A DNA stretch of 44,231 bases from Alphaproteobacteria bacterium (GTDB taxonomy: Bacteria > Pseudomonadota > Alphaproteobacteria > DSM-16000 > Inquilinaceae). A program made the translations under genes and the position numbers. Of the stretch, positions 25,049-44,093 are shown one piece after another. Below the pieces are notes generated by a model. The model did not search any database and was not told the DNA's origin. It saw only the letters and a list, made by a program, of their open reading frames with translations. The DNA is taken from the NCBI GenBank assembly GCA_009909005.1, contig JAAAOG010000090.1:1-44231 (forward strand), in the 5' to 3' direction. Position 1 is the stretch's first letter, and every line of letters begins with the position of its first letter.

Positions 25049-28000
25049 TCATCCGGCCGGGAATACGGCTTCGCCCTGGGGCGCATCAAGCAGTGCGATG
25101 ACACCCGCGGTCGGGATCGAAAGCCAGCCCGGTCGGTTTGCGGCTTCATAGTTGATTTCGTAGAGCGCCTTTTCGAGAATCAGCAAGTCAAGCAGCTGCT
25201 GTGCCACGGCGGCATCCGGGGGAAAACTGACGCAGTCGCCGATGAAGGCACGATACGCGCCCAGGAACGCCTCCGTCGCCAGACGCCGCCACGTCATGGC
25301 CTGACCCAGAAGCTCATCATACCAGTCCGGGCTGGTTTCGGCAGCCGATTTGGCACCCGCCCAGGCGGCGTAGTCGAAGGAGCGGACCATCCCGGCCACG
25401 TCGCGCATGGGGCTTTTCTTGGCGCGCCGTTCGGCCAGGCCCCGCCGCGGTTCCCCCTCGAAGTCGACCAGGATGAAATCGTCGCCGGCGACCAGGACCT
25501 GGCCCAGATGATAGTCGCCATGATGGCGCGTCTTCGCCGCCTCGGGGACCACGGAAACGAGTTTCCGGATCAATGCCTGGCAGTCATCCCGCCGCTCGAT
25601 CAGCCGCGAGACCAGGGCACCGACGCCGGCAGACAGCGTCGGCCGGACCTGTTCCAGGGTCGAGAAGGCGTGGTTCGCCTGCTCCAGCACGTCGGTCTCG
25701 ATTCCCGCCATGTCGTCGGCGGTCATCGGCTCGGGATCGAAATTCGGGTTGCCGGTGTCCAGGGCCAGGGCGCGATGCAGTTCCGCCGTGCGCCGGCCGA
25801 GCGTCGCCGCCTGCTGCAGATAGACGGCGTGCCGCTCCTCCATCGACATGTCCGGGCCGCCGATGCCAAGGCGCATCTCCTCCAGGTGGCGCTGGAGATA
25901 TTCGAGCGTGTAGTCCCAGCCATTGCCCTGGCTGCGCTCGAAGCGCTGCAGGATGGCGAGCGCGGTCGGCGTGCCGTCCCCTGACACATGCACCACCGAC
26001 CCCAGCAGCGCCGGCGTATTGGCGTAACCGGCCACTTCGGTGAGGAAACGGCCCATTTCGACTTCCGGATGGATGCCCGGCGACAGGCGGCGATAGGCCT
26101 TGAGGATCATCTTTTCGCCGACGATGATCGAGGTGTTGCTCTGCTCGGCGCCGAGTCGGCGCACCTCGTCGGCATCCTCCACGGTGACGGTTTCCAGCTC
26201 CGACCCCGGCTCGAAACGCCAGCGGCCGGTCTGGCCGTCGACCTCGGCCCCGGCGCGGATCGCCTGCACCATAGCGGGCGCGAAGCTGGGATCCGCCGCC
26301 GCATCGATCAGGGCGCCGAGTGAGGGGCCGCGGCGGATCTTGGCGAGCGTATAGGGCAGCAGGGCGGAGACGGTGGTGGCAGCCGTCTCGTCCCAGCGCG
26401 AGGCCACGGGCAGGAAATAGCGCTGCGATTTTCCGTAACCGCGCAGGTCGGTCTCGACAATCAGCGAGAAAAGATGCTGGCCGGCACCGGGGATGCGTGC
26501 CCCGTCGATCACGCGGATGCCGGCGATGCCCGCGTCCTTCGCCGCAAACCAGCGCTGATTTGCGACATAGGGCGGAAGGACCTCGCGCACGAGCTGTTGG
26601 CCCATCCGTCCTTTCGTCAGGCTGTTCCAACCCTCGGACATGACGAGTGTGATGAGATCGGGCATCGGCTCCGGGATCGGTTCGTGCCAGCGCGGCAGTT
26701 CGGCTTCCGCCTCCAGGAGGAACCAGTAGAAGGCGTAGGGCGGGGCCGTCAGAAGATACGGCAAATCGCCGATCGGCGGAAAGGTGCTGCGTCCCAGCAA
26801 TTCCACCGGCACCCGTCCCTTGAAGCGCGACAGGTCGAGCTCCACCGCCTGCGCCTGGCGCGACAGATTGGCCACACAGAGGATGATCTCGTCCTCCAGC
26901 TCGCGCAGATAGGCCAGGATCTTGCGGTTGCCGGGATAGAGGAAGGTCTGGCTGCCGCGGCCAAAGGCGCGGTGCTGCTGGCGCACCGCGATCAGGCGCT
27001 TCATCCAGTTGAGCTGGGAGGAGGAGCTGCGCTGCTGCGCTTCGACATTCACCGCGTCGAAGCCGTAGATCTGGTTCATGATCGGCGGCAGGTAGACCCG
27101 GGCCGGGTCGGCCCGCGAGAAGCCGCCATTGCGGTCCGGCGACCATTGCATCGGCGTCCGCACGCTGTCGCGGTCGCCCAGGAAAATATTGTCCCCCATG
27201 CCGATCTCGTCGCCGTAATAGATGATCGGCGTGCCCGGCATGGAGAACAGCAGGCTGTTCATCAGCTCGATCTTGCGGCGGTCGTTTTCCATCAGCGGCG
27301 CGAGGCGGCGGCGGATCCCGAGATTGAGGCGCGCCCGCGGTTCCGCCGCGTAGAACCGCCACAGGTAATCCCGCTCCCGGTCCGTGACCATTTCCAGCGT
27401 CAGTTCATCGTGATTCCGCAGAAAGATCGCCCATTGGCAGGTCGAGGGAATGTCCGGGGTCTGCCGCATGATGTCGGTGATCGGAAAGCGGTCCTCCATG
27501 GCGATGGCCATGTACATGCGCGGCATCAGCGGGAAGTGGAACGCCATGTGGCATTCGTCGCCATCGCCGAAATAGGGGGCCGTGTCCTCCGGCCATTGAT
27601 TGGCCTCGGCCAGGAAAAAGGCATGCGCGTGCGTCTCGTCGAGCGCGCTGCGCAGCTGCTTCAGAACGTGATGGCTCTCCGGCAGGTTTTCGTTCGAGGT
27701 GCCGTCGCGCTCGACCAGATAGGGGATGGCATCCAGCCGCAGCCCGTCGACGCCGCTGTCGAGCCAGAAGCGCATGACCTCGGTGACCGCCTCCACCACG
27801 CGCGGATTGTCGAAATTGAGGTCCGGCTGGTGGCTGAAAAAACGGTGCCAGTAATATTGCTGTGCCACCGGGTCCCAGGCCCAGTTCGAGACTTCGGTAT
27901 CGGTGAAGATGATCCGGGTCTCCGGCCAGCGGCGGTCATCGTCCGACCAGACGTACCAGTCCCGGTGTTTCGAGCCCTTGCGGGCCTTCCGCGCCCTCTG

Positions 28001-28360
28001 GAACCAGGGGTGCTGGTCCGAGGTGTGATTGATGACGAGCTCGGTAATGACCCGGATACCGCGGGCATGCGCCGCTTTCACAAAGCGCCGGAACTCCCCC
28101 ATCGTCCCGTAACTGCTGTTGATATTCTTGTAGTCCGAAATGTCATAGCCGTCGTCTCGCAGCGGCGACGGGTAGAATGGCAGAATCCAGACCGCGCTGA
28201 TGCCGAGATCCTTCAAATAATCCAGTTTTTCCGTCAGCCCGCGGAAGTCGCCGATCCCGTCATTATTCGAATCGAAGAACGCCTTGACATGAAGCTGATA
28301 GATGATCGCGTCCTTGTACCAAAGCGGGTCGGACCGGTCGATGGTCGTGCTGGCGCGCAT
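25049..28360 (-). CDS. treS: Trehalose synthase-maltokinase fusion
   Basis: A 1103-residue two-domain enzyme. Residues about 1-560 are trehalose synthase (GH13): WYKDAIIYQLHVKAFFDSN, nucleophile Asp in GLRLDAIPYLVERDG, Glu in FFLAEANQWPED and the RNHDELTLEMV motif; this interconverts trehalose and maltose. Residues about 590-1103 are a maltokinase of the aminoglycoside-phosphotransferase-like fold, with HGDYHLGQ (catalytic Asp), ILVDFEGEPRRG and KKSPMRDVAGMVRSFDYAA, making maltose-1-phosphate with ATP. The product feeds GlgE, encoded just upstream. The ATG at 28360 is chosen because the conserved part begins there; the frame is open 35 codons further. About 272 bases without a gene precede it, with a TTGACA at 28479-28484 (minus strand) but no good -10. 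Confidence 0.95.
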   Translation of the reverse strand: MRASTTIDRSDPLWYKDAIIYQLHVKAFFDSNNDGIGDFRGLTEKLDYLKDLGISAVWILPFYPSPLRDDGYDISDYKNINSSYGTMGEFRRFVKAAHARGIRVITELVINHTSDQHPWFQRARKARKGSKHRDWYVWSDDDRRWPETRIIFTDTEVSNWAWDPVAQQYYWHRFFSHQPDLNFDNPRVVEAVTEVMRFWLDSGVDGLRLDAIPYLVERDGTSNENLPESHHVLKQLRSALDETHAHAFFLAEANQWPEDTAPYFGDGDECHMAFHFPLMPRMYMAIAMEDRFPITDIMRQTPDIPSTCQWAIFLRNHDELTLEMVTDRERDYLWRFYAAEPRARLNLGIRRRLAPLMENDRRKIELMNSLLFSMPGTPIIYYGDEIGMGDNIFLGDRDSVRTPMQWSPDRNGGFSRADPARVYLPPIMNQIYGFDAVNVEAQQRSSSSQLNWMKRLIAVRQQHRAFGRGSQTFLYPGNRKILAYLRELEDEIILCVANLSRQAQAVELDLSRFKGRVPVELLGRSTFPPIGDLPYLLTAPPYAFYWFLLEAEAELPRWHEPIPEPMPDLITLVMSEGWNSLTKGRMGQQLVREVLPPYVANQRWFAAKDAGIAGIRVIDGARIPGAGQHLFSLIVETDLRGYGKSQRYFLPVASRWDETAATTVSALLPYTLAKIRRGPSLGALIDAAADPSFAPAMVQAIRAGAEVDGQTGRWRFEPGSELETVTVEDADEVRRLGAEQSNTSIIVGEKMILKAYRRLSPGIHPEVEMGRFLTEVAGYANTPALLGSVVHVSGDGTPTALAILQRFERSQGNGWDYTLEYLQRHLEEMRLGIGGPDMSMEERHAVYLQQAATLGRRTAELHRALALDTGNPNFDPEPMTADDMAGIETDVLEQANHAFSTLEQVRPTLSAGVGALVSRLIERRDDCQALIRKLVSVVPEAAKTRHHGDYHLGQVLVAGDDFILVDFEGEPRRGLAERRAKKSPMRDVAGMVRSFDYAAWAGAKSAAETSPDWYDELLGQAMTWRRLATEAFLGAYRAFIGDCVSFPPDAAVAQQLLDLLILEKALYEINYEAANRPGWLSIPTAGVIALLDAPQGEAVFPAG

Positions 28361-28632
28361 CTTGAAGCTCTCGGGCGGAAGACACGGGGACGGACGGCAG
28401 GACGATCGCCGGCCGGTTCCTTCTTCGTTTTGCGCTGAAGCAGCGAGGTGAAAGCAGCCAATCAAGCCCGTCCCGGCCTGTCAAGGCTTTGCGGGGTACG
28501 CTGCCCGATTACCGCGTGCATTCCTCCCATGCCCGGAACGCGGGGTACGGCACGGCCGGCCGGGCGCCGGAAAGCCCCTCGCCTTCCGCCCGGCGGCCGT
28601 CTCCGCTTTAGCCTGCCGGCTCCCCCTCAGGA

Positions 28633-30927
28633 TCAGGCCGGCTTGACCCGCCAGAAGAAGGCCGGAAGATTGTTGTCGATCCAGATCTGCTGATTCTTGC
28701 CGGTCCAGGTGAACTCGACGCCGCTCATCAGATCCTCCATATGGGCGGGGGCCCAATCCGGGAGGTTGAATTCCCACAGCGGCAGTTCGAGCGGCCCTTC
28801 CTGCGGGTGGTACGGGTCGAGATTGACGGCGACCAGGACAAAATTGGACTTGTCTTTGGTCATCTTGCCGTAAAGCAGGATGTTTTCGTTCCCACAGCTG
28901 TAGAACTTGAGATTATCGTATTCCTGCAGGGCGGGATTGTTGCGCCGGATCATGTTGAGCTTCTTGATCCAGTCGCGGATATTGCCGGGCCGGTCCCAGT
29001 CCCAGACCTTGTACTCGTACTTCTCCGAATTGATGTATTCTTCCTTGCCGGGCACGCCGGCGTTCTCGCAAAGCTCGAAGCCGTTATACATGCCCCACAG
29101 GCTGTTCAAGGTGGTCGCCAGCGCCGAGCGAATGAGGAAGGCCGGCCGGCCGCCCTCCTGCAAATGGAAGGGCAGGATATCCGGGGTATTCACGAAGAAA
29201 TTCGCCCGCATATATTCCTTCGCCTCGCCCTGGCAGAGCTCCTGCAGATATTCCGTGAACTCGGCCTTGCCGGTCCGCCAGGTGAAATAGCTGTAGCTCT
29301 GCGTGAACCCGACCTTGGCCAAGCCCTTCATCAGTTTGGGTCGCGTGAAGGCCTCGGACAGGAAGAGCGCATCGGGATGGCGGTCCTGGATGTCGCGGAT
29401 CATCCACTCCCAGAACGGGTAGGGCTTTGTGTGGGGATTGTCGACGCGGAAGATCTTGACGCCCTGATCGATCCAGAACTGCACCACGTCCCGCAGTTCG
29501 ATCCACAAATCCCGCTTCGGCGTCACGCCGTCGGCCTCGTAAAACTCGACATTGACGATGTCTTCGTACTTCTTCGGCGGGTTCTCGGCGAAACGGATGG
29601 ACCCGTCGGGCCGCCATTTGAACCACTCCGGATGCTCCTTCACCCAGGGATGATCGGGCGAGCACTGGATGGCGAAGTCGATCGCCACCTCCATGCCGTG
29701 CTTTTCCGTCTCTTTGACGAAGCGGCGGAAGTCTTCCAGCGTGCCCCATTCCGGATGCACTGCCTTGTGCCCGCCCTCCTCGGAACCGATGGCATAGGGG
29801 CTGCCGGGGTCCTCCGGCGCCGCCCGCAGGGAATTGTTGCGGCCCTTGCGGTTGGTTTTGCCGATCGGGTGGTGAGGCACCAGGTAGACGACATCGAAGC
29901 CGAGGTCTTTGATATACGGGAGCCGATCGATGCACTCGTCGATGGTCGCGCCGCGCATGGGATTGGTGCCCTGCGAGCGCCAGAACATTTCGTACCAAGA
30001 AGCGAAGCGCGCCGCGATGCGATCGACAGTGACCTCCAGCTCTTTGTAATGAGTCTGGCCGGCCCGGACCTGGCAGCGCCGCATGGCTGAAACCGTCGAT
30101 TTGGCCAGCAGCAGGTCCATCTTGGTGACGGTGTCGGTCCCGGCCTCGTCCAGCGCCTCCAGGAGTTTGGTGAGGGTCTGGCGATCGGGGCCACGGGCAT
30201 TGCCCAGCGCCTGCTCGACCAGCGAGCGGACCTCGATCAGGTCGACTTCGACATTCTGGTGCGCCTCGGCTTTCTTGACGGTGTCGGCCATCAGAGTGCC
30301 GAAGGCATCGAAATAGGCCTCGACCGTGTAGCGGTAGCGCGTGTTGCGCTCCACGGTGAACGAACCAGAATAGCGGTCGTTCTCGACGAAGCGCATCGGG
30401 ACCTCATGCCAGGTCCCTTCGTCCTCGGCATGATAGAGCACCGAGGCGATGATCTGGCCATGCCCCTGGAAGACGATATCGGCGCTGACGGTGATTTCGT
30501 CGCCGACTTCGCGCTTGATCGGATGCCGCCCGCCGTCGAGTTCCGGCGTCACGCCGGTGATGACGAAGCGATGCGGCGCCAGCGCCTTGAGGCGCGCTTC
30601 CGATTCCGGGGTCAAAGCCCGCGGGGCGGGTTTCGCCGGACCGGCCGGAGCCTCGGTTTTGGCAGCAGGCGCGGGCTTCGTCCCGGCGGTCTTGTCTTCG
30701 GGCGCCCTGGCTTCGGGCGCCCTGGCTTCGGACCCTCTGGTTCCGGACGTCTTGGCCTGAGCCGTTCCGGTTTCGGCCGGACCTTTATCCGCGGGCCTGG
30801 TCGCGGCCGCCGGTGCTTCGCCGGCCTTGCCCGCCGGTGCAGGCTTTGCCGCCTCCGACGATTTTGCCGTGTCGGCGGTCTTGCCGGTTTCGCCGGTCTT
30901 GCCCGTTTTGGTTGGAGCCGTGCTCAT
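28633..30927 (-). CDS. glgE: Alpha-1,4-glucan:maltose-1-phosphate maltosyltransferase
   Basis: Transfers maltosyl from alpha-maltose-1-phosphate to the non-reducing end of alpha-1,4-glucan. The 764-residue protein has an unusual N-terminal segment of about 105 residues rich in Lys, Ala, Thr, Pro and Gly, then a normal GlgE: the N-terminal beta domain (RFVITGVTPELDGGRHPIKR), an alpha-helical bundle (DLIEVRSLVEQALGNARG), and the GH13 core with the nucleophile Asp in FRVDNPHTKPYPFWEW, acid/base Glu in LFLSEAFTRPKLM, and the maltose-phosphate-binding NPPKKYEDI region. The ATG at 30927 has GGAGA about 8 bases upstream; an in-frame ATG 24 bases further up lacks one. It leads the glgE - treS - glgB - glgX - malQ series. 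Confidence 0.95.
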   Translation of the reverse strand: MSTAPTKTGKTGETGKTADTAKSSEAAKPAPAGKAGEAPAAATRPADKGPAETGTAQAKTSGTRGSEARAPEARAPEDKTAGTKPAPAAKTEAPAGPAKPAPRALTPESEARLKALAPHRFVITGVTPELDGGRHPIKREVGDEITVSADIVFQGHGQIIASVLYHAEDEGTWHEVPMRFVENDRYSGSFTVERNTRYRYTVEAYFDAFGTLMADTVKKAEAHQNVEVDLIEVRSLVEQALGNARGPDRQTLTKLLEALDEAGTDTVTKMDLLLAKSTVSAMRRCQVRAGQTHYKELEVTVDRIAARFASWYEMFWRSQGTNPMRGATIDECIDRLPYIKDLGFDVVYLVPHHPIGKTNRKGRNNSLRAAPEDPGSPYAIGSEEGGHKAVHPEWGTLEDFRRFVKETEKHGMEVAIDFAIQCSPDHPWVKEHPEWFKWRPDGSIRFAENPPKKYEDIVNVEFYEADGVTPKRDLWIELRDVVQFWIDQGVKIFRVDNPHTKPYPFWEWMIRDIQDRHPDALFLSEAFTRPKLMKGLAKVGFTQSYSYFTWRTGKAEFTEYLQELCQGEAKEYMRANFFVNTPDILPFHLQEGGRPAFLIRSALATTLNSLWGMYNGFELCENAGVPGKEEYINSEKYEYKVWDWDRPGNIRDWIKKLNMIRRNNPALQEYDNLKFYSCGNENILLYGKMTKDKSNFVLVAVNLDPYHPQEGPLELPLWEFNLPDWAPAHMEDLMSGVEFTWTGKNQQIWIDNNLPAFFWRVKPA

Positions 30928-31056
30928 GCGTCTTTCTCCGAAATCCGTCATCGCAAGCGCCGCCCGGGCACATCCGCGAGCGTAACGCGGTCACCGTGTG
31001 ATGATGCCGGGGCCTGGGCGGCCAGACGCCGAGCCCCGGGTTCAGTCGCGACGGTG

Positions 31057-32482: not shown

Positions 32483-34066
32483 TCAATGCCGGAAATGCCG
32501 CATGCCGGTAAAGACCATCGCGATATTGTGTGCGTTCGCCGCCTCGATCACCTCATTGTCGCGGACCGAGCCGCCGGGCTGGATGACTGCGGTGGCGCCG
32601 GCCTCGACAGCGGCGAGCAGCCCGTCGGCAAAGGGAAAGAAGGCGTCGGACGCGACGACAGACCCGGCCGTGCGCGGGGCGGTCTCGCCGGCCTCCGCCC
32701 CGATCTCCGCCGCCTTGCGGGCGGCGAGTCGGGCGCTGTCGACCCGGCTCATCTGACCCGCCCCCACGCCGACCGTGGCCCCGTCCTTCGCATAGACGAT
32801 GGCGTTGGACTTGACGTACTTGCAGACGGTGAAGCCGAAGAGCAGGTCGGCCATTTCCCGCGCATCGGGCTCCCGCCGGGTGACCACCTGCAGCGTGTCG
32901 GCGGTGGCCCGGCCGGCATCGCGCGACTGCAGCAGCAGGCCTCCGGCGACCGAGCGCAGGGTCATTCCCGCCTGCACCGGGTCGGGCAGCCCGCCGGTCA
33001 GCAGCACCCGCAGTCCCTTGCGCCCGGCCAGCGCCGCACAGGCGGCCTCGTCGGCCTCGGGCGCGATCACCACTTCGCAGAAAATCTCGGCGACGGCATG
33101 CGCGGTGGCCGCATCGAGCGGCCGGTTGACCGCGACGATGCCGCCAAAGGCGCTCACCGGGTCGCAGGCCAGAGCCTTGTGATAGGCCTCGGCCAGGCTG
33201 TCGGCCACGGCGACGCCGCAGGGATTGGCGTGCTTGACGATGACCACGGCCGGCGCGGCGAACTCGGCCACCAGTTCGAAGGCCGCATCGGCATCGCCGA
33301 TATTGTTGTAGCTCAGCTCCTTGCCCTGCAGCTGCCGGGCACTGACGACGCCCGGCCGCACCTCCGGCGTGCGGTAGAGCGCCGCCTGCTGGTGCGGGTT
33401 CTCGCCATAGCGCAGGGTGAACAGCCGCCGGCCGGAGAGAGACAGCGTATCGGGGAAGGTCTCGCCCGCCTGGCCGGCGAACCAGCCCGCTATGGCGGAG
33501 TCGTAGGCCGCCGTACGGGCGAAGGCCGCCGCCGCCAGCCGCTCCCGCAATGCCGCAGAGGTGGCGCCGTCATGCGCCGTCATGTCGGCGACAACCGCGT
33601 CGTACTGGCCCGGCGCCGTCACCACGGTGACGAAGGCATGGTTCTTGGCCGCGGCGCGGATCATCGCCACGCCGCCGATATCGATGTTCTCGATCGCCGT
33701 GACCGGATCGGCACCGCCCGCCACCACGTCTTCGAAGGGATAGAGGCTGCCGACCAGCAGGTCGATCGGCGCGATGGAATAATCGGTCATCGCCTCGCGA
33801 TGCTCGTCGCTGTCGCGCCGCGCCAGCAGGCCGCCATGGATCTTCGGGTGCAGCGTCTTGACCCGGCCGTCCATGATCTCCGGAAAGCCCGTATAGTCGG
33901 AGACCTCGCGCACCGCGACGCCGGCCTCCGCCAGCGCGCGGGCCGAGCCGCCGGTCGACAGGATTTCGACGCCGCGCTCCCCCAGGAACCGGCCGAATTC
34001 GACGATCCCGGTCTTGTCGGCCACGGAGATCAGGGCGCGTCGGATAGGCGTGGCGGCGGTCGGCAT
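32483..34066 (-). CDS. purH: Bifunctional AICAR transformylase/IMP cyclohydrolase
   Basis: Carries out the last two steps of IMP synthesis: formylation of AICAR with 10-formyl-THF and ring closure. The 527-residue length is standard. The N-terminal MGS-like cyclohydrolase domain (about 1-195) shows [30 protein letters not shown] and [13 protein letters not shown]. The transformylase domain shows [41 protein letters not shown] and [10 protein letters not shown]. The ATG at 34066 has GAGGAG 9 bases upstream. In related genomes purH follows rsmB and a heparinase-like gene; here the same order holds with two coiled-coil genes inserted between. Confidence 0.96.
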
Positions 34067-34211
34067 GGCGGCGGCTCCTCTTTTCGGCTTGGTGTTTGGC
34101 GATGGACGCAGGCGGATTGCCGGCCGCCATTTAACGGCCTTTGTCCGGGCTTGTCGAACCCGGACAGCCGCACCGGCCGAACGAGACGGGCCGGGATCAG
34201 GGCTGGAGAGA

Positions 34212-34571
34212 TCAGGGCTGGAGATAGGGGGCCAGGGCGATGCTGCCGATCACCAGGCCGACCACGCCGATGACCGTGCTGACGACGATGCCGACCACCG
34301 TCGCCGTCCGGGGCCGCTCGCCCATCTGAACAGTCAACGTCGTCACACCCTTGGCCAGTTCCGACACATTGTGCTCCACGAACAGAAGGCGCCTGTCGAG
34401 CCGCTTCTCCGTCTCTTCAATGCGCAGCTCGAGGCGCTTCTCCATTTCCTCGAAGCGCTGGTCAATTCGCTTTTCCAAACCCGTCAGCCGCTCGTCCATA
34501 CGCGCGATCTGCGGCAGCAGCTGATCGCGGATCAGGCTTTCCAGGCGGCTTTCGGTATCGACGGCGGCCAT
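34212..34571 (-). CDS. Membrane-anchored coiled-coil protein, short paralogue
   Basis: A 119-residue protein: residues 1-70 are highly charged helix ([19 protein letters not shown], then [20 protein letters not shown]), predicted coiled coil, and residues about 88-116 are one hydrophobic segment ([19 protein letters not shown]) ending in APYLQP, so it should be tail-anchored with its helices in the cytoplasm. It is a tandem paralogue of the next gene upstream: the first 19 residues are identical, and the C-terminal 38 or so are also identical, but it holds one copy of the internal ETEKR 11-mer where the other has eight. The function is unknown. It lies 145 bases before purH. Confidence 0.8.
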
Positions 34572-34637
34572 GGGCGTCTTTCCCTTCTCCCGTCAATTTC
34601 GGCTGTTGCGGCGGTTTTGGCAAAGAAAACCGGTCCC

Positions 34638-34673
34638 TCAGTCCTCACTGCCGGCTTCCGGGCCAAAGCCGCC
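34638..34673 (-). pseudogene. Duplicated scrap of the heparinase-like gene's 3' end
   Basis: The sequence here closely matches 35398-35433, the last codons and stop of the heparinase II/III-like gene, and is followed in both places by the same TTTTGGCAAAGAAAACCGGT stretch (reading the plus strand leftwards). It sits between the two coiled-coil paralogues and marks the edge of the segment copied in the tandem duplication. Confidence 0.75.
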
Positions 34674-34710
34674 GGGAGCGGCCGGCCCGGCGCTATGACA
34701 CGCGCCGGGA

Positions 34711-35322
34711 TCAGGGCTGGAGATAGGGGGCCAGGGCGATGCTGCCGATCACCAGGCCGACCACGCCGATGACCGTGCTGACGACGATGCCGACCACCGT
34801 CGCCGTCCGGGGCCGCTCGCCCATCTGAACGGTCAAGGTCGTGACAGCCTTGGCCAGCTCAGCCATATTCGTTTCGACAACGGCAAGGCGCCTGTCCATT
34901 GCGTTGTCACGATCTTCAGAGCCCTTTTCAGTGCCCTTGATCTGCTGATAAAGGCGCTTTTCCGTCTCCTCGATCTTCTGGTTAAGACGCTTCTCGGTCT
35001 CCGCAAGCTGCTGTGTAGACCGCTTCTCGGTCTCCTCGATCTTCTGGTCAAGGCGCTTCTCGGTCTGCGCGAGGTGCTGTGCAAACCGCTTCTCGGTCTC
35101 CTCGATCTTCTGGTCCAGGCGCTTCTCGGTCTCCGCTAATGTCTGCTCCAGCTGCTTCTCGGTCTCCTCCATCCGAAGCTCAAGGCGCTTGCCGATTTCT
35201 TCGAAGCGCTGGTCGACGCGCTTTTCGAACGCCGCCTGGCGCTCGTCCATGCGCGCGAGCTGCGGCAGCAGCTGATCGCGGATCAGGCTTTCCAGACGGC
35301 TTTCGGTATCGACGGCGGCCAT
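34711..35322 (-). CDS. Membrane-anchored coiled-coil protein with 11-residue repeats, long paralogue
   Basis: A 203-residue tail-anchored protein. After a shared N-terminus ([19 protein letters not shown]), eight tandem 11-residue units start at residues 53, 64, 75, 86, 97, 108, 119 and 130, each reading close to ETEKRLDQKIE. An exact 11-residue period with hydrophobic residues in fixed positions is a hendecad coiled coil, which forms straight or slightly right-handed rods about 13 nm long for this length. The C-terminal hydrophobic segment (about 172-198) anchors it in the membrane. It lies 75 bases past the heparinase-like gene. No family was recognised; a scaffold or spacer role is inference. 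Confidence 0.82.
   Translation of the reverse strand: MAAVDTESRLESLIRDQLLPQLARMDERQAAFEKRVDQRFEEIGKRLELRMEETEKQLEQTLAETEKRLDQKIEETEKRFAQHLAQTEKRLDQKIEETEKRSTQQLAETEKRLNQKIEETEKRLYQQIKGTEKGSEDRDNAMDRRLAVVETNMAELAKAVTTLTVQMGERPRTATVVGIVVSTVIGVVGLVIGSIALAPYLQP
34924..35166 (-). repeat. 33-base tandem repeats encoding the hendecad rod
   Basis: In-frame tandem units of 33 bases code for the eight 11-residue repeats. Alternate units are more alike (66-base higher-order period: DQKIE and QxLA forms alternate), suggesting growth by duplication of pairs. Confidence 0.8.
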
Positions 35323-35397
35323 GGGCGTCTTTCCCTTTCCCCCCTTTCCCCGTCAATTTCGGCTGTGGCGGCGGTTTTGGCAAAGAAAACCGGTCGC

Positions 35398-37140
35398 TCA
35401 GCCCTCACTGCCGGCTTCGGGGCCGAGGCCGAGGGCGGATCCAAGGAACCCGCGTTTCAGCGACCAGGTCAGTCGTGCGGTCTCCTGCCGGTCCGACGCG
35501 CCGGAGAGGACCAGTTGCGCCGTCCGGCGGTGCTGCGTGCCGCTGCCGACATAGACGCTCTCCGCGACGGCGACCGGACCGCTTTCCGAGCGGAAGACCC
35601 AGCCACCGCCGCTGGCCAGGCGCAGGCCGACGGCTGTCCCTTGCGCATCCGGCGTCGCCGTCACATCGGGGTGGAGGTGAAAGCGGGCCGCAAAGCCGAC
35701 CGTCTCGCCATCCGGCCGCCCCGTCGGGATCAGCAGATCCTCCCCCCGGATCTCGCCGCCGTCCTGGCTGATCCACAGGCTGCGCTCGTGCCGCAGGCCG
35801 AAGAGACGGCCGTAGAAATCATGGCTGGCCTCGATATGCACGCCGTCGGCCTCGGCGACGCGGGAGATGGTGACGCGGCCGGGCCGCCCGGCAAAGCCGC
35901 CTTCCGGCCGGATGGGCAGGGCATTGGTCTCACCGACGGTCACCGTCGAATGCGCCGCCGTGCCGCGCAGGGCGGCGTGCCAGGATCCGGTGCCGTCCGC
36001 CTCGGCGCCGTCGGGATAGGGCCAGGCGCCGCAATTGACGACCAGCCGCTCGCGGCCGTCCGACATCTCCAGGCTCAGCGGCCCGGCATGGCCGTCACGG
36101 TCGTGGCCGAGCGGCGGCGGTGCGCCGACATCCATCAGCAGCAGCGTCCGGCCGGCCAGCACCCGCTGATAACCGAGCCGCCCGGCCGATTTCAGCGGTT
36201 TTCCTCCGGCACCGGTCTGCGACAGGACCGCCTCGATCAGCGCCGGATCGCCTTCCTGGCTGCCGTTGAACAGGGCCAGCCGGCCATCGCCATGGCGCAG
36301 CAGGCGCAGACCGGGCACCAGGCGGTCGATGCCGTCGCGCAGCAGGTCCATGGCGGGCGACACCGCCTCGTCTTCGACCCCGATCGCCGACTGCGCCATG
36401 TTCAAGGCCGCGCGCAGATCGGCAAGATCGCGCAGCACCAGCAGCAGCATTGCCGGGTTGCGGCCGAAGGCGCCGCCATCGCCGGACAGCTGCTCGGGCA
36501 GGTCGCGCCGCAGCCGGGCGAGGCCGGCGCTCAGCCGGTCCTCGTGCCCCGGCAGCGCCAGGGCGCCGACGACCAGCCCTTTCACCGCCGCGATCAGCTC
36601 CGGTCCCGGCCGTGCATCGGCAAGGGTCCGCGACAAGTGTCGGGTCTGGCGGGACAGGCTGGCAAACACGTCCTCGCGAAAACCGTCATCGGCGCTGAGG
36701 CAGAAGAAATCGTGCAGCGCAATCCAATTGGCGATCCGCCGCCCCAGCACGTCGGGCCGCCAATAGACCGGGTGCCAGCGGTCGCAGGTCTCCAGCCACT
36801 CGTCGACGCGCTGCCGCGCCGTGCGCCTAGCGTCATCGCCGCCCGCCGCCCGCAGATCGCGCAGCCAGGCGAAACCTCCGAGGTCCGCCTGCGCGTCCGC
36901 GCCAAGCGCCGGGTCGCCGAAGACCGGGGCCTCGGGTCCGCGCGGCTCGACCACGCCGCCGAACCGCCCGGCCACGATCTCCGCGCCATGCCCGGCATCG
37001 CCCGGCCAGGGATCGGGCGGCACCAGCCGCAGCGCCCGGATGCGCGGGGTCCGCAGCGTCCAGCCATAGAGCCCGCTGGCAAACAAGGCGCGACGCAGGC
37101 GGGCGCCCAGAGTCGGAACCGCAAAAGCACGGTCGCCCAT
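35398..37140 (-). CDS. Heparinase II/III-like protein
   Basis: A 580-residue protein with an alpha/alpha-toroid N-terminal part (about 60-290: RFGGVVEP, then WHPVYWRPDVLGRRIANWI) and a C-terminal beta-sandwich of the heparinase II/III family (about 320-570: GYQRVLAGRTLLLMDVGAPP, GTAAHSTVTVGETNALPI, HIEASHDFYGRLFGLRHERS). The His in AAHSTVTV and the Tyr in HDFYGR are at positions used in the lyases. No signal peptide is seen, so a secreted polysaccharide lyase role is doubtful; many alphaproteobacteria carry this form next to rsmB and purH with no known substrate. The ATG at 37140 is chosen over a TTG at 37158 because GGGAGG lies 9 bases upstream. Confidence 0.85.
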   Translation of the reverse strand: MGDRAFAVPTLGARLRRALFASGLYGWTLRTPRIRALRLVPPDPWPGDAGHGAEIVAGRFGGVVEPRGPEAPVFGDPALGADAQADLGGFAWLRDLRAAGGDDARRTARQRVDEWLETCDRWHPVYWRPDVLGRRIANWIALHDFFCLSADDGFREDVFASLSRQTRHLSRTLADARPGPELIAAVKGLVVGALALPGHEDRLSAGLARLRRDLPEQLSGDGGAFGRNPAMLLLVLRDLADLRAALNMAQSAIGVEDEAVSPAMDLLRDGIDRLVPGLRLLRHGDGRLALFNGSQEGDPALIEAVLSQTGAGGKPLKSAGRLGYQRVLAGRTLLLMDVGAPPPLGHDRDGHAGPLSLEMSDGRERLVVNCGAWPYPDGAEADGTGSWHAALRGTAAHSTVTVGETNALPIRPEGGFAGRPGRVTISRVAEADGVHIEASHDFYGRLFGLRHERSLWISQDGGEIRGEDLLIPTGRPDGETVGFAARFHLHPDVTATPDAQGTAVGLRLASGGGWVFRSESGPVAVAESVYVGSGTQHRRTAQLVLSGASDRQETARLTWSLKRGFLGSALGLGPEAGSEG

Positions 37141-37148
37141 GCCGTCAG

Positions 37149-37167
37149 CCTCCCGCAATCCGGGAGG
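37149..37167 (-). promoter_or_regulatory. Hairpin covering the ribosome binding site of the heparinase-like gene
   Basis: On the minus strand CCTCCCG (37161-37167) pairs perfectly with CGGGAGG (37149-37155) across a 5-base loop. The second arm is the GGGAGG ribosome binding site of the ATG at 37140, so the mRNA could hide its own start. Confidence 0.6.
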
Positions 37168-41493: not shown

Positions 41494-41827
41494 CATCGTA
41501 GGGTGAGCTTTGCGAACCCCAACTTTGGCCACATCAGAACGAAATTATGTTGGGGTTCGCTTCGCTCACCGCCAACCTACCACAACTGTTTTCACTGCAA
41601 GACATCGTAGGTTGGGGTGAGCTTTGCGAACCCCAACTTTGGCCACATCAGCACGAAATTATGTTGGGGTTCGCTTCGCTCACCGCCAACCTACCACAAC
41701 TGTTTTCACTGCAAGGCATCGTAGGTTGGGGTGAGCTTTGCGAACCCCAACTTTTGGCCACATCAGCACGAAATTATGTTGGGGTTCGCTTCGCTCACCG
41801 CCAACCTACCACAACTGTTTTCACTGT
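41494..41827. repeat. REP array: three tandem units of paired palindromes
   Basis: Three units of about 109-114 bases start at 41494, 41603 and 41717. Each holds a plus-strand REP (41498-41523, 41607-41637, 41721-41751) starting with GTAG and ending in GAACCCCAAC, and a minus-strand REP (41549-41580, 41663-41694, 41778-41809), starting GTAGGTTGGCGGTGAGC on the minus strand. The two lie in inverted order, like BIMEs. The 5'-GTAG foot is the usual mark recognised by REP-associated tyrosine transposases, one of which is encoded next door. Confidence 0.88.
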
Positions 41828-41861: not shown

Positions 41862-42404
41862 TCATTCGCCGACCACGGTTTCAAGGGCTGAGGGGTCCCT
41901 GCCGCCCGCCCAGGCGGCCGGATAGGTCCCGATCCGGGCATGATGATGGAAGGTCGAATGTGGCCATTCCCAGACCTCCGAGACGAGCCCGTGCTTTACC
42001 GGATTGAAGTGGATGTAATCGAAGTGGCGGGCGAAATCCTCCTCGTCTCGGAGCCGATGTTCCCAAAAGCGTCTCTGCCAAATGGAGCGCTCGCCCTTGG
42101 ACAGGCGAGACGACGTCTGGCAAGGCTCGCCAGAAAAGTGGAACCCACGGCTGAAACCCGACTTGATGAGCGACCAGCGGACTGAATAGTCCGCATCGCC
42201 CTCCGGCATGGTCCAAATGGCGTGCATGTGATCCGGCAAACTCACCCAGGCCTCTATTTGGAAGGGATAAGCCCCGCGGACTTGCCGGACGACTTGGCGG
42301 AGCAGATCGACGGCTCCGGTCTGAGCAAAAACCCGGCGACGCTGATGCGTCACGGCGGTGAAGAAAAAGCAGCCGCCCGGTGTGCGGTCGCGTCTGTAAC
42401 GCAT
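41862..42404 (-). CDS. REP-associated tyrosine transposase (RAYT)
   Basis: A 180-residue single-domain Y1 transposase of the IS200-like fold. The HUH motif is LPDHMHAIW (His59, His61), and the catalytic Tyr130 lies in FDYIHFNPVKHGLV, with WQRRFWEHRLRDEEDF just before it, a typical RAYT block. The N-terminus shows the GGCFFFTAVTHQRRRVF strand-turn that opens this family. These proteins bind and nick REP hairpins next to a GTAG foot and are not flanked by inverted repeats of their own. REP sequences lie on both sides here, so the enzyme, its targets and its own promoter region form one unit. Nothing suggests it is broken. Confidence 0.9.
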   Translation of the reverse strand: MRYRRDRTPGGCFFFTAVTHQRRRVFAQTGAVDLLRQVVRQVRGAYPFQIEAWVSLPDHMHAIWTMPEGDADYSVRWSLIKSGFSRGFHFSGEPCQTSSRLSKGERSIWQRRFWEHRLRDEEDFARHFDYIHFNPVKHGLVSEVWEWPHSTFHHHARIGTYPAAWAGGRDPSALETVVGE

Positions 42405-42416
42405 GATTCTGGTCGC

Positions 42417-42591
42417 ATGTCGGGATGTTGGGGTTCGCTTCGCTCACCGCCAACCTACCGCAAGATACTGGCCCGTCACGACGGGCGCTGCACCCGTACT
42501 TAACCATGTCCGGATGTTGGGGTTCGCTTCGCTCACCGCCAACCTACCGCAAGATACTGACCCGTCACGACGGGCGCTGTACCAGTAGCTA
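42417..42591. repeat. Two REP units upstream of the RAYT gene
   Basis: Two 89-base units begin at 42417 and 42506. Each holds one minus-strand REP (42427-42458 and 42516-42547), identical in core to those in the left array, followed by CAAGATACTG and a small hairpin CCCGTCACGACGGG. The second unit ends at the alcohol dehydrogenase stop codon. Confidence 0.88.
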
Positions 42592-43611
42592 AGCTGTTTT
42601 CAGCACCGCTGCACCATGAACGCGGCCGTCGCGTAGGGCTGACAGCGCCTCATTGGCCTTTTCCAGCGGCCAGGGCTCGACCGTGGTGCGTACGGGCACC
42701 TTTGGGGCAAGGGCGAGGAACTCCTCCCCGTCCGCGCGGGTGAGATTGGCGACCGAGACGATCTCCCGCTCCATCCAGAGGATGTCGTAGGGGAAGCTGG
42801 GGATGTCGCTCATGTGGATGCCGGCGCAGACGACCCGCCCGGCCGGCCGGACCGCGCGCAGCGCCGCCGGCACCAAAGCGCCCACCGGGGCGAAAAGGAT
42901 GGCCGCATCCAGCGGCTCGGGCGGCGATGCGTCCGACGGCCCGGCCCAGACGGCGCCGAGGCTGCGGGCGAAATCCTGCGCTGCCGTGTCGCCGGGCCGG
43001 GTGAAGGCATAGAGCGCCCGGCCCTGCCAGGCGGCGACCTGGGCGACGATATGCGCCGCCGCACCGAACCCATAGAGCCCCAGCCGCGCCGCCTCGCCCG
43101 CCTTGCGGAGCGCGCGATAGCCGATCAGGCCGGCGCAGAGCAGCGGTGCCGCCTCGATGTCCGTATAGTCGCCGTGGATCGGAAAGGCGTAGCGCTGGTC
43201 GACCCGGACATGGTCGGCATAACCGCCGTCGATCTGGTAGCCGGTGAAGCGGGCATCTGGACAAAGGTTCTCTCGGCCGGACCGGCAATACAAGCAGTCG
43301 CCGCAGGTCCAGCCCAGCCAGGGCACCCCGACCCGCTCGCCCGGTGCGAAGCGATCGACCTCCGAGCCCAGCGCCGCCACCCGCCCGACCACCTCGTGCC
43401 CCGGCACTATCGGCAGGCGGGGCTCGGTCAGCTCGCCGTCGACAACATGCAAGTCGGTGCGGCAGACGCCGCACGCACTCACCTTGACGATGATCTCGCC
43501 TGCCCCGGGCTCCGGCACCGCATGGTGCTCGAGACGCAACGGCCGCCCGGCCGCCGCCAGCACCATCGCCCGGGAGCCCGCCATGTCAGGGCCGGCCGGG
43601 TTAGGCGCCAT
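42589..43611 (-). CDS. Zinc-dependent alcohol dehydrogenase
   Basis: A 340-residue medium-chain dehydrogenase. Zinc sites are complete: the catalytic Cys in VSACGVCRTDLHVVDGEL, His in VPGHEVVGRVA, and the four-Cys structural site CGDCLYCRSGRENLC. The cofactor fold contains GLYGFGAAAHIVAQVA, typical of the AdhA-like branch that oxidises short alcohols with NAD(P). The ATG at 43611 overlaps the antitoxin gene's stop by 11 bases; later in-frame ATGs (43584, 43566) have no better ribosome binding sites, so the start is not certain. The stop is in the last REP unit. Confidence 0.9.
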   Translation of the reverse strand: MAPNPAGPDMAGSRAMVLAAAGRPLRLEHHAVPEPGAGEIIVKVSACGVCRTDLHVVDGELTEPRLPIVPGHEVVGRVAALGSEVDRFAPGERVGVPWLGWTCGDCLYCRSGRENLCPDARFTGYQIDGGYADHVRVDQRYAFPIHGDYTDIEAAPLLCAGLIGYRALRKAGEAARLGLYGFGAAAHIVAQVAAWQGRALYAFTRPGDTAAQDFARSLGAVWAGPSDASPPEPLDAAILFAPVGALVPAALRAVRPAGRVVCAGIHMSDIPSFPYDILWMEREIVSVANLTRADGEEFLALAPKVPVRTTVEPWPLEKANEALSALRDGRVHGAAVLKTA

Positions 43612-43846
43612 CAGTCCCGGTCTTTAAGTTCTTATGCTGACGCGGAATGACCACACGCGCATTGTCCGGAATGTCGGTGTTCGTGCCGTCCTCCACAGCC
43701 ATGGCCTCAATCTCATCTTCCGTGAATCGATCGATCGCATTCAAGTCTGTCCGGCTTTCAGACTTTCGCCAGACACCGTCACCGCGATTCACATAAAGAA
43801 TCCCGTCGACAACCTTAGCAATCGTCAGCCGCTCTGGCTCGCTCAT
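43601..43846 (-). CDS. Probable antitoxin partner of BrnT
   Basis: An 81-residue protein encoded right behind the BrnT-like toxin, overlapping its end by 32 bases, in the usual toxin-first order of brnTA. Its middle, SRTDLNAIDRFTEDEIEAM, resembles the SRTDW...DEDI segment of BrnA, but the ribbon-helix-helix C-terminus of BrnA is missing; the protein ends NARVVIPRQHKNLKTGTDGA. DNA binding and self-repression may therefore be lost or done differently. GAGGG lies close before the ATG at 43846. It could also be a short unrelated regulator; the assignment leans on position. Confidence 0.65.
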   Translation of the reverse strand: MSEPERLTIAKVVDGILYVNRGDGVWRKSESRTDLNAIDRFTEDEIEAMAVEDGTNTDIPDNARVVIPRQHKNLKTGTDGA

Positions 43847-44093
43847 AACCCTCGACCTCGTTTTTCCGCGCCGGCCTCATTGAGATAATCCGACGCCGGT
43901 CACCCCGATCGACGTATATGATGGTAATATATCGTCCCTTAAGCACGCCCACGGCGGCTCTTCGAGCCTCTCCCTGTCTGGGCGCATCCCATTCCAGGGT
44001 AAAGGATTCGAACACGGACTTCGCATCCTCAAAATCGAGTTCGCGGTCTGCAATTGTCTGCAGCCGCTTTTTTTCATCCCACTCGAACTCCAT
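43815..44093 (-). CDS. brnT: BrnT-family ribonuclease toxin
   Basis: A 92-residue toxin of the RelE-like BrnT family, which cleaves mRNA and stops growth when free. The start MEFEWDEKKR, the central SVFESFTLEWDAPRQGEARRAA and GRYITIIYVDRGDRRRIISMRPARKNE strand pair, with the RRIISMR and YERAR C-terminal residues, match the family closely. The order toxin then antitoxin on the same strand is that of brnTA. No clear ribosome binding site is visible before 44093. Activity depends on the neighbouring 81-residue protein, which is not a typical BrnA. Confidence 0.85.
   Translation of the reverse strand: MEFEWDEKKRLQTIADRELDFEDAKSVFESFTLEWDAPRQGEARRAAVGVLKGRYITIIYVDRGDRRRIISMRPARKNEVEGYERARAADDC

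Follow-up and report, generated by a model that had tools for sequence, protein, structure and literature searches.

Tandem duplication of a predicted tail-anchored rod gene with conserved ends and unequal stalks in an Inquilinaceae genome

The stretch of 44,231 nucleotides (nt) analysed here, referred to as the window, is the entire contig JAAAOG010000090.1 (C128) of an alphaproteobacterium of the Inquilinaceae (assembly GCA_009909005.1) with a genome of 4.23 Mb in 230 contigs. Its minus strand carries two adjacent genes, flanked by a heparinase II/III-like gene and purH, for predicted rod-shaped proteins of 203 and 119 residues (aa), subsequently called the long and the short rod gene. Both proteins consist of a 28-residue head, a charged coiled-coil stalk, one C-terminal membrane helix and a short APYLQP tail. 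The features of the locus, all on the minus strand, are the following:

35398-37158, minus: heparinase II/III-like gene (Hepar_II_III_C), from the open reading frame (ORF), Pfam PF07940 (E 1.2e-56) and the repeat match
35398-35434, minus: final ~37 nt of the heparinase gene, source of the scrap described below (repeat match)
34675-35434, minus: long copy of the duplicated unit, namely heparinase 3' end, intergenic stretch, long gene and a short downstream stretch (outer borders by eye)
34711-35322, minus: long rod gene, 203 aa, with head 1-28, stalk 29-169 and membrane tail 170-203 (ORF and AlphaFold2 model)
34921-35217, minus: nine hendecad units of the long gene, residues 36-134, with a higher-order period of 66 nt (repeat analysis)
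34638-34674, minus: scrap, a copy of the heparinase 3' end including the stop codon 34638-34640 (31/37 nt identical)
34167-34674, start approximate, minus: short copy of the duplicated unit (outer borders by eye)
34212-34571, minus: short rod gene, 119 aa, with head 1-28, stalk 29-85 and membrane tail 86-119 (ORF)
34401-34466, minus: two hendecad units of the short gene, residues 36-57 (hendecad register)
34210-34331, minus: putatively homogenised tail tract of 122 nt, identical to 34709-34830 (sequence match)
34709-34830, minus: partner of this tail tract (sequence match)
32483-34066, minus: purH, the downstream neighbour (Pfam)

Duplication and mosaic divergence of the rod-gene pair

Ungapped repeats of 196 nt (87% identical), 188 nt (90%) and 90 nt (91%), of a size that excludes chance, link the two genes, and the perfect 122-nt match covers the gene ends. 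The 90-nt repeat includes a scrap of the neighbouring gene, in which 31 of 37 nt agree with the heparinase 3' end and the stop codon at 34638-34640 corresponds to the one at 35398-35400. As this scrap with the heparinase stop codon is located between the rod genes, a unit starting inside the heparinase gene has been tandemly duplicated, extending from the heparinase 3' end to just past the rod-gene stop codon. Both the duplication with such a starting point and the scrap had been proposed in the original prediction, made from the letters of the window alone, and are confirmed. At and just past the stop codon of the short gene, a perfect 15-nt tandem copy of GATCAGGGCTGGAGA occupies 34195-34224, with the unit present once only at the long copy. 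No intrinsic terminator was found near the pair, the one promoter-like site is on the other strand, and a GC hairpin 3' of the long gene is mildly stable compared to shuffles (z -1.97).

The two copies have diverged as a mosaic. Between the proteins the first 21 and the last 44 residues are identical, and the final 37 codons plus stop agree at 114 of 114 nt; within the final 36 codons, none of the 32.7 synonymous sites has changed. In codons 22-58, on the other hand, 23 of 111 nt differ (synonymous divergence, dS, 0.89; nonsynonymous divergence, dN, 0.13), as do 18 of 72 nt in the 24 codons preceding the tail (dS 0.85, dN 0.18). Upstream, the heparinase-derived coding part differs at 6 of 34 nt and the intergenic stretch to codon 21 at 5 of 129 nt plus a 9-nt gap; head codons 1-28 show a dS of 0.16. 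Fisher's test separates the tail (p 3.7e-10) and the stretch from the intergenic region to codon 21 (p 2.8e-6) from the stalk flanks, values that are somewhat flattering, since the block edges were picked after viewing the alignment. Nor is the tail sequence generally frozen, as the short copy and a paralogue on contig C75 differ at 23.2 of 31.2 synonymous sites. An identical tail next to stalk flanks with about half of their synonymous sites changed cannot be explained by one duplication date alone; the claim of identical termini therefore stands as an observation, with homogenisation or stalk replacement required in addition to recency. Gene conversion of the ends, stopped mid-gene by the unequal stalks, would be the simplest account of the mosaic on the sequence pattern. 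In the stalk flanks dN/dS is about 0.15 and 0.21, which indicates that both copies have been maintained as proteins, and both look functional.

The hendecad nature of the stalks, with an 11-residue periodicity over several units, is evident in both proteins, in agreement with the original prediction. Tandem Repeats Finder reports period 33 at 34935-35190 and period 66 at 34955-35173, while autocorrelation peaks at lag 22 and then 11 in the long protein (reached by 0 of 500 shuffles) and at lag 11 in the short one (3 of 500). The hendecad register gives nine units in the long and two in the short protein; the eight and one counted originally are obtained if ETEK-type units alone are considered. 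The difference in stalk length, as such correctly recognised, amounts to 84 residues, which can be read as seven hendecads and, at a Gly-Ser step, seven further residues. A hydropathy peak near the C-terminus (2.45-2.71 over 19 residues in all five proteins of the family introduced below) bears out the proposed membrane helix of both proteins. A structure prediction of the 203-residue protein had also been suggested. An AlphaFold2 run (monomer, two-sequence input) models a single helix over residues 2-131, mostly with a predicted local distance difference test (pLDDT) score >90, and a break at 132-138 at the Gly-Ser step; the helix at 139-167 (pLDDT about 50-63) and the membrane helix at 171-201 (about 40-59) are modelled with low confidence. 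If fully helical, the short and the long protein would reach about 8.5 nm versus 21 nm.

A five-gene family, its relatives and its look-alikes

Three paralogues, on contigs C75, C148 and C137, have the same head and tail as the window pair, and the head profile and the tail profile each match exactly five genes in this genome. The neighbours of the paralogues are unrelated, with C75 located between apt-like and phosphoesterase-like genes and C137 beside an mnmA-like gene (names by eye). Reading frames and membrane helix are intact in 5/5 genes. Stalk periods, better than in shuffles, are 11 residues in the short, long and C75 proteins, 13 in C137 and 20 in C148. Copies of a MATKDD-type beta-layer motif number five in C137, three in C148, one in C75 (with a widened pattern) and zero in the window pair; C137 and C148, not the pair, display the motif [aliphatic]-A-T-K-[polar]-[DE] in heptad-breaking spacing, and both match the Tcar0761 construct 5apz (E 1.1e-10 and 7.4e-4, respectively). 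In the sections of Hartmann et al. (PMC4786415) drawn upon here, insertion of four residues into heptads leads to hendecads, and insertions of two or six residues lead to short beta-layers, as demonstrated with the MATKDD motif. The rule accommodates C137 and C148, whose stalks combine MATKDD-type motifs with periods of 13 (7+6) and 20 (7+7+6), respectively. One family with common ends thus appears to use two coiled-coil grammars, with the beta-layers predicted from the motif and its spacing.

Spread of the family via the REP-associated tyrosine transposase of the window was considered and rejected, as the exact REP motif occurs in 0 of 98 loci, which cover only short stretches round the paralogues. 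The transposase itself (41862-42404, minus strand; NF047646, 197.6 bits) is flanked by REP-like arrays at 41501-41826 and 42416-42587 with eight copies of a 22-nt motif (<=3 mismatches; 0 in 100 shuffles).

The family is species-private so far, being found in this genome only among those sampled. No convincing head match was obtained in 16 same-order, 384 same-class and 397 same-phylum other genomes (the class and phylum sets are drawn samples that overlap), nor a convincing tail match in the 16 same-order and 384 same-class genomes. Discarded candidates include a weak head match in G011 (E 0.032) without an ORF >=90 aa on its strand, eight weak head matches (seven from searches with the window family, one with the second family described below) in unrelated or antisense-looking frames, and a Desulfobacterales protein (L008; 28% identity, heptad period, other head). 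Equally, the same layout with another head is seen in G003 C126 (period 14) and in G002 C59, which repeats every 16 residues and gives a weak tail match (E 0.0013), and the weak profile match of G004 C91 (E 0.0079) contains an internal stop with no listed ORF of rod layout; a further weak match, G060 C44 (E 0.0071), is situated inside a 728-aa frame. A literature search by protein kind only found no work on the rod family.

Among the 16 relatives, the heparinase gene is present in 15 and purH in all; in 12 they reside on one contig within 1.7 kb. In those 12, no rod gene was seen between them, the gaps of G002 and G014, about 1,660 bp long, having been read over their first 1,500 bp: the gap is too small for a rod gene in G005 (100 bp) and G010 (218 bp), and the remaining ten gaps contain other genes or no clear gene. 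In G008 the two genes are 54 kb apart, in G003 and G006 they are on separate contigs, and G007 has no heparinase match. The rod gene consequently entered this spot in the lineage of the window or was lost many times; the closeness of heparinase and purH without a rod gene agrees with the order of events proposed below. The gap is variable in the relatives (L039-L046, L048-L051), harbouring acetyltransferase-like, cyclase-like and esterase-like genes and a membrane protein (by eye).

That the family is unrecognised, as originally claimed, holds for the curated Pfam and NCBIfam libraries, in which no listed match of the pair reaches the cut-off (the list for the long protein comprising the top 25 of 26 Pfam and of 28 NCBIfam matches), whereas the kind is known from DUF1640/CCDC90, Tcar0761-type and Borrelia Bdr proteins. 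Membership of any of the five genes in a known family of Pfam, NCBIfam or PHROGs (the last without curated cut-off) was rejected, with sub-threshold or weak coiled-coil cross-matches only.

The CCDC90-like/DUF1640 family (Pfam PF07798; MCUR1, CCDC90B, yeast Put6/Put7 and prokaryotic homologues) has the same order of head, stalk and C-terminal membrane helix, and the layout of a coiled-coil stalk followed by a C-terminal membrane helix is indeed present in the rod proteins. MCUR1/CCDC90B have reportedly been presented, in a 2019 paper in Structure, as a family conserved in prokaryotes, and the Lupas group is said to have published a survey of hendecad families; we know of no established role for prokaryotic head-stalk-anchor coiled coils (DUF1640 and kin). 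The head of the rod family, however, with a consensus around LIRDQLLP, is not the CCDC90 head. C75 scores 17.2 vs 33.5 bits, below the gathering score, and aligns to profile positions 84-171 of 175 only, C148 and C137 have no match at E<=0.5, and the pair has none listed at E<=1 (for the long protein among the best 25 of 26); the first 33 profile positions are matched by two other genes, C27 and C136, not by the five. A MATK-type beta-layer motif, as characterized in the part of PMC4786415 used here, occurs in three of the five genes and is missing from the pair.

As for Tcar0761 of Thermosinus (PDB 5apz), MATKDD-type repeats are found in C137 and C148 too, spaced by heptads plus six residues (13 and 20), but Tcar0761 itself contains 14 repeats of the nonad MATKDDIAN, and the window pair has no beta-layer motif. 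Bdr of Borrelia is the nearest look-alike in repeat wording, with similar 11-residue repeats (EKRLxxKIxx), one C-terminal membrane helix and 24% identity over 181 alignment columns; with another N-terminal domain and an unrelated phylum, the likeness is probably convergent. Several Bdr paralogues are found per genome. Neither NF040499 nor KID (PF02524) is listed for the pair (long protein, best 25 of 26 and 25 of 28), while a Bdr protein from Borrelia coriaceae reaches 96.1 bits with NF040499 and has a KID score of 20.1 vs 20.8 bits. On plasmid cp29 of Borrelia coriaceae (L098), a Bdr gene with EKRLEEKIDGV-type hendecads is located between phage terminase and portal genes. The actinobacterial FilP/Scy rods are not known to be tail-anchored and have a DivIVA-type N-terminus, with Scy far longer at over 1000 residues; what they have in common with the rod family is long hendecad coiled coils expanded inside a family, according to the portion of PMC9858780 considered. 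The amphipathic repeats of 11 residues were taken to explain, by their composition, apolipoprotein matches of the long protein (E 7.4e-10, 39.3 vs 90 bits; PDB ApoE, E 3.7e-5) as well as the matches to 13 plasmid records (10 Thermus, 2 Borrelia, 1 Nonomuraea), all below 60% identity and none covering 80%; both sets were rejected.

The genome harbours further head-stalk-anchor genes. A search with the Pfam CCDC90-like profile (E<=0.1) yields nine matches on seven contigs here versus four in 3 of the 16 relatives, with C27, C165 and C64 in this genome and C50 in G003 over the cut-off; sub-threshold matches in 9 of 14 control genomes indicate that weak CCDC90 matches mean little. A second family of four genes, on C223, C64, C165 and C20 (L080, L081, L078 and L088), shares the head MTSAVQLYEAL and a hydrophobic stretch at the C-terminus, and its stalks repeat most strongly every 18 or 43 residues (with 25); in C64 and C165 the stalk and anchor, but not the head, match CCDC90 above the cut-off. 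Matches of its head profile are confined to this genome among 386 searched, all 16 relatives included, a G370 match having proved spurious on reading in frame. A CCDC90-type head is carried by C27 (L074:1264-1947), which has 22-residue repeats and exceeds the cut-off, and by C136 (L087:2006-2233), of 76 aa with almost no stalk (25.9 vs 33.5 bits). When the profile of the window family is set against that of the second one, the membrane helix alone gives a match, and a weak one (probability 65%).

Elsewhere in the window, a BrnT-type toxin gene (43815-44093, minus strand; PF04365) adjoins a small gene (43601-43846) without Pfam match at E<=0.01, and at 25049-30951 (minus strand) a GlgE-type maltosyltransferase gene adjoins a 1138-codon alpha-amylase/maltogenic-amylase family gene, by its look a GlgE glucan pathway locus.

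Origin of the pair and rival explanations

We consider it probable, though by no means secure, that the pair is a tandem duplicate of a small private family of tail-anchored rods, with converted ends and an amplified long stalk, that serve as inner-membrane posts. Duplication of the unit, which starts ~37 nt before the end of the heparinase gene and closes shortly after the rod-gene stop codon, would have been followed by divergence of the copies under protein-level constraint, with gene conversion keeping the ends alike and the 84-residue stalk difference keeping conversion out of the stalks; the long stalk would have grown by 66-nt (double-hendecad) amplification. The protein would expose a short helical head and a coiled-coil stalk to the cytoplasm, with the C-terminal helix in the inner membrane. 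Such rods may homo-oligomerise, the beta-layer members likely as trimers, and may act as membrane spacer or scaffold with the reach set by stalk length. In the part of PMC7519068 considered, Put6 and Put7, CCDC90 relatives of yeast, assemble into a hetero-oligomeric complex that serves the use of proline, and it is these known cousins that suggest a scaffolding role by analogy.

Several points weigh against this reading. The genome is fragmented into its 230 contigs with 3.02% contamination, the scrap is short and the block edges were chosen post hoc. The topology is based on a positive-inside trend: in the pair, a glutamate and two arginines precede the helix and no charged residue follows; in C148 and C137 a single arginine follows the membrane helix. 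From residue 139 onwards, the pLDDT of the monomer job is about 40-63. Among distant paralogues, dN is near or above dS (C148-C137 heads, dN 0.86, dS 0.61; C75-C137 heads, dN 0.60, dS 0.63; few codons), so that the dN/dS test is silent on family-wide constraint of head and tail. Coiled-coil spacers tend to hold their length as the sequence drifts (PMC5082667, in the part consulted); that length varies freely here speaks against a strict ruler. Finally, the mosaic could also stem from import of a diverged stalk.

The last point leads to an alternative that we judge doubtful but serious, a recent duplication after which one copy received a new stalk from a diverged allele or paralogue through recombination. 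The abrupt change at 34331/34830 from identical to ~75% identical sequence and the separate evolution of stalks and ends in the paralogues are in line with it; yet the first two hendecads are common and in register, which makes the stalks homologous, and the scrap outside the gene has also diverged (6/34 coding nt), unexpected for a purely recent duplication. Somewhat less probable still is that the rods are true, highly diverged CCDC90/DUF1640 proteins that have lost the family head. Such a descent would explain the identical head-stalk-anchor order, the weak match of C75 over stalk and anchor (E 0.0049; 15.1 bits in the genome search), the MATK-type motif in 3/5 genes (C75 by widened pattern) and the co-occurrence of C27 over the cut-off, of C136 with the head below it and of two of the four second-family genes, C64 and C165, passing it over stalk and anchor. 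Against this, all five genes remain below the gathering score, the pair has neither a listed match (long protein, best 25 of 26) nor the MATK motif, and sub-threshold matches are also seen in 9 of 14 control genomes.

That the genes are non-functional repeat carriers, spread and expanded without selection, is unlikely: while their private, dispersed occurrence, labile repeat number and dN near dS among distant paralogues would suit it, dN is well below dS in the stalk flanks of the two copies and between the heads of the short copy and C75, and frames and membrane helix are intact throughout. Least credible is a phage-derived holin accessory protein of the XhlA type (coiled coil, then one membrane helix). 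The hints are weak, namely a match between the short protein and XhlA (E 0.11; 13.1 vs 34.7 bits) and a PHROG match, 'hemolysin' phrog_1193 (E 8.4e-5); no match occurs in 50,697 phage records, none was confirmed in IMG/VR by a pattern-led scan, and inspection by eye showed no phage genes in the part of the window surrounding the pair or in stretches of ~1.5 kb flanking the paralogues.

Conserved ends and changing stalks

The kind of protein is known and the family new to the libraries searched; the part worth attention is the combination of conserved ends with changing stalks. More speculatively, and with clear reservation, the genome might possess a private kit of 11 or more genes of head-stalk-anchor layout, with heads of three types (5+4+2), in which conserved ends let posts share partners or co-assemble and the cell sets the membrane stand-off by choice of post, paralleling Borrelia Bdr. 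If true, such a kit would constitute a standing generator of spacer lengths, with the stalk free to change both length and coiled-coil grammar. Two private families with conserved ends and variable stalks represent a natural experiment on whether stalk length or the ends are important. The tandem pair is its cleanest case, with near-identical heads, identical anchors and mainly 84 stalk residues different, while the paralogues indicate, inside one family, swaps between all-helical hendecads and apparent beta-layer repeats.

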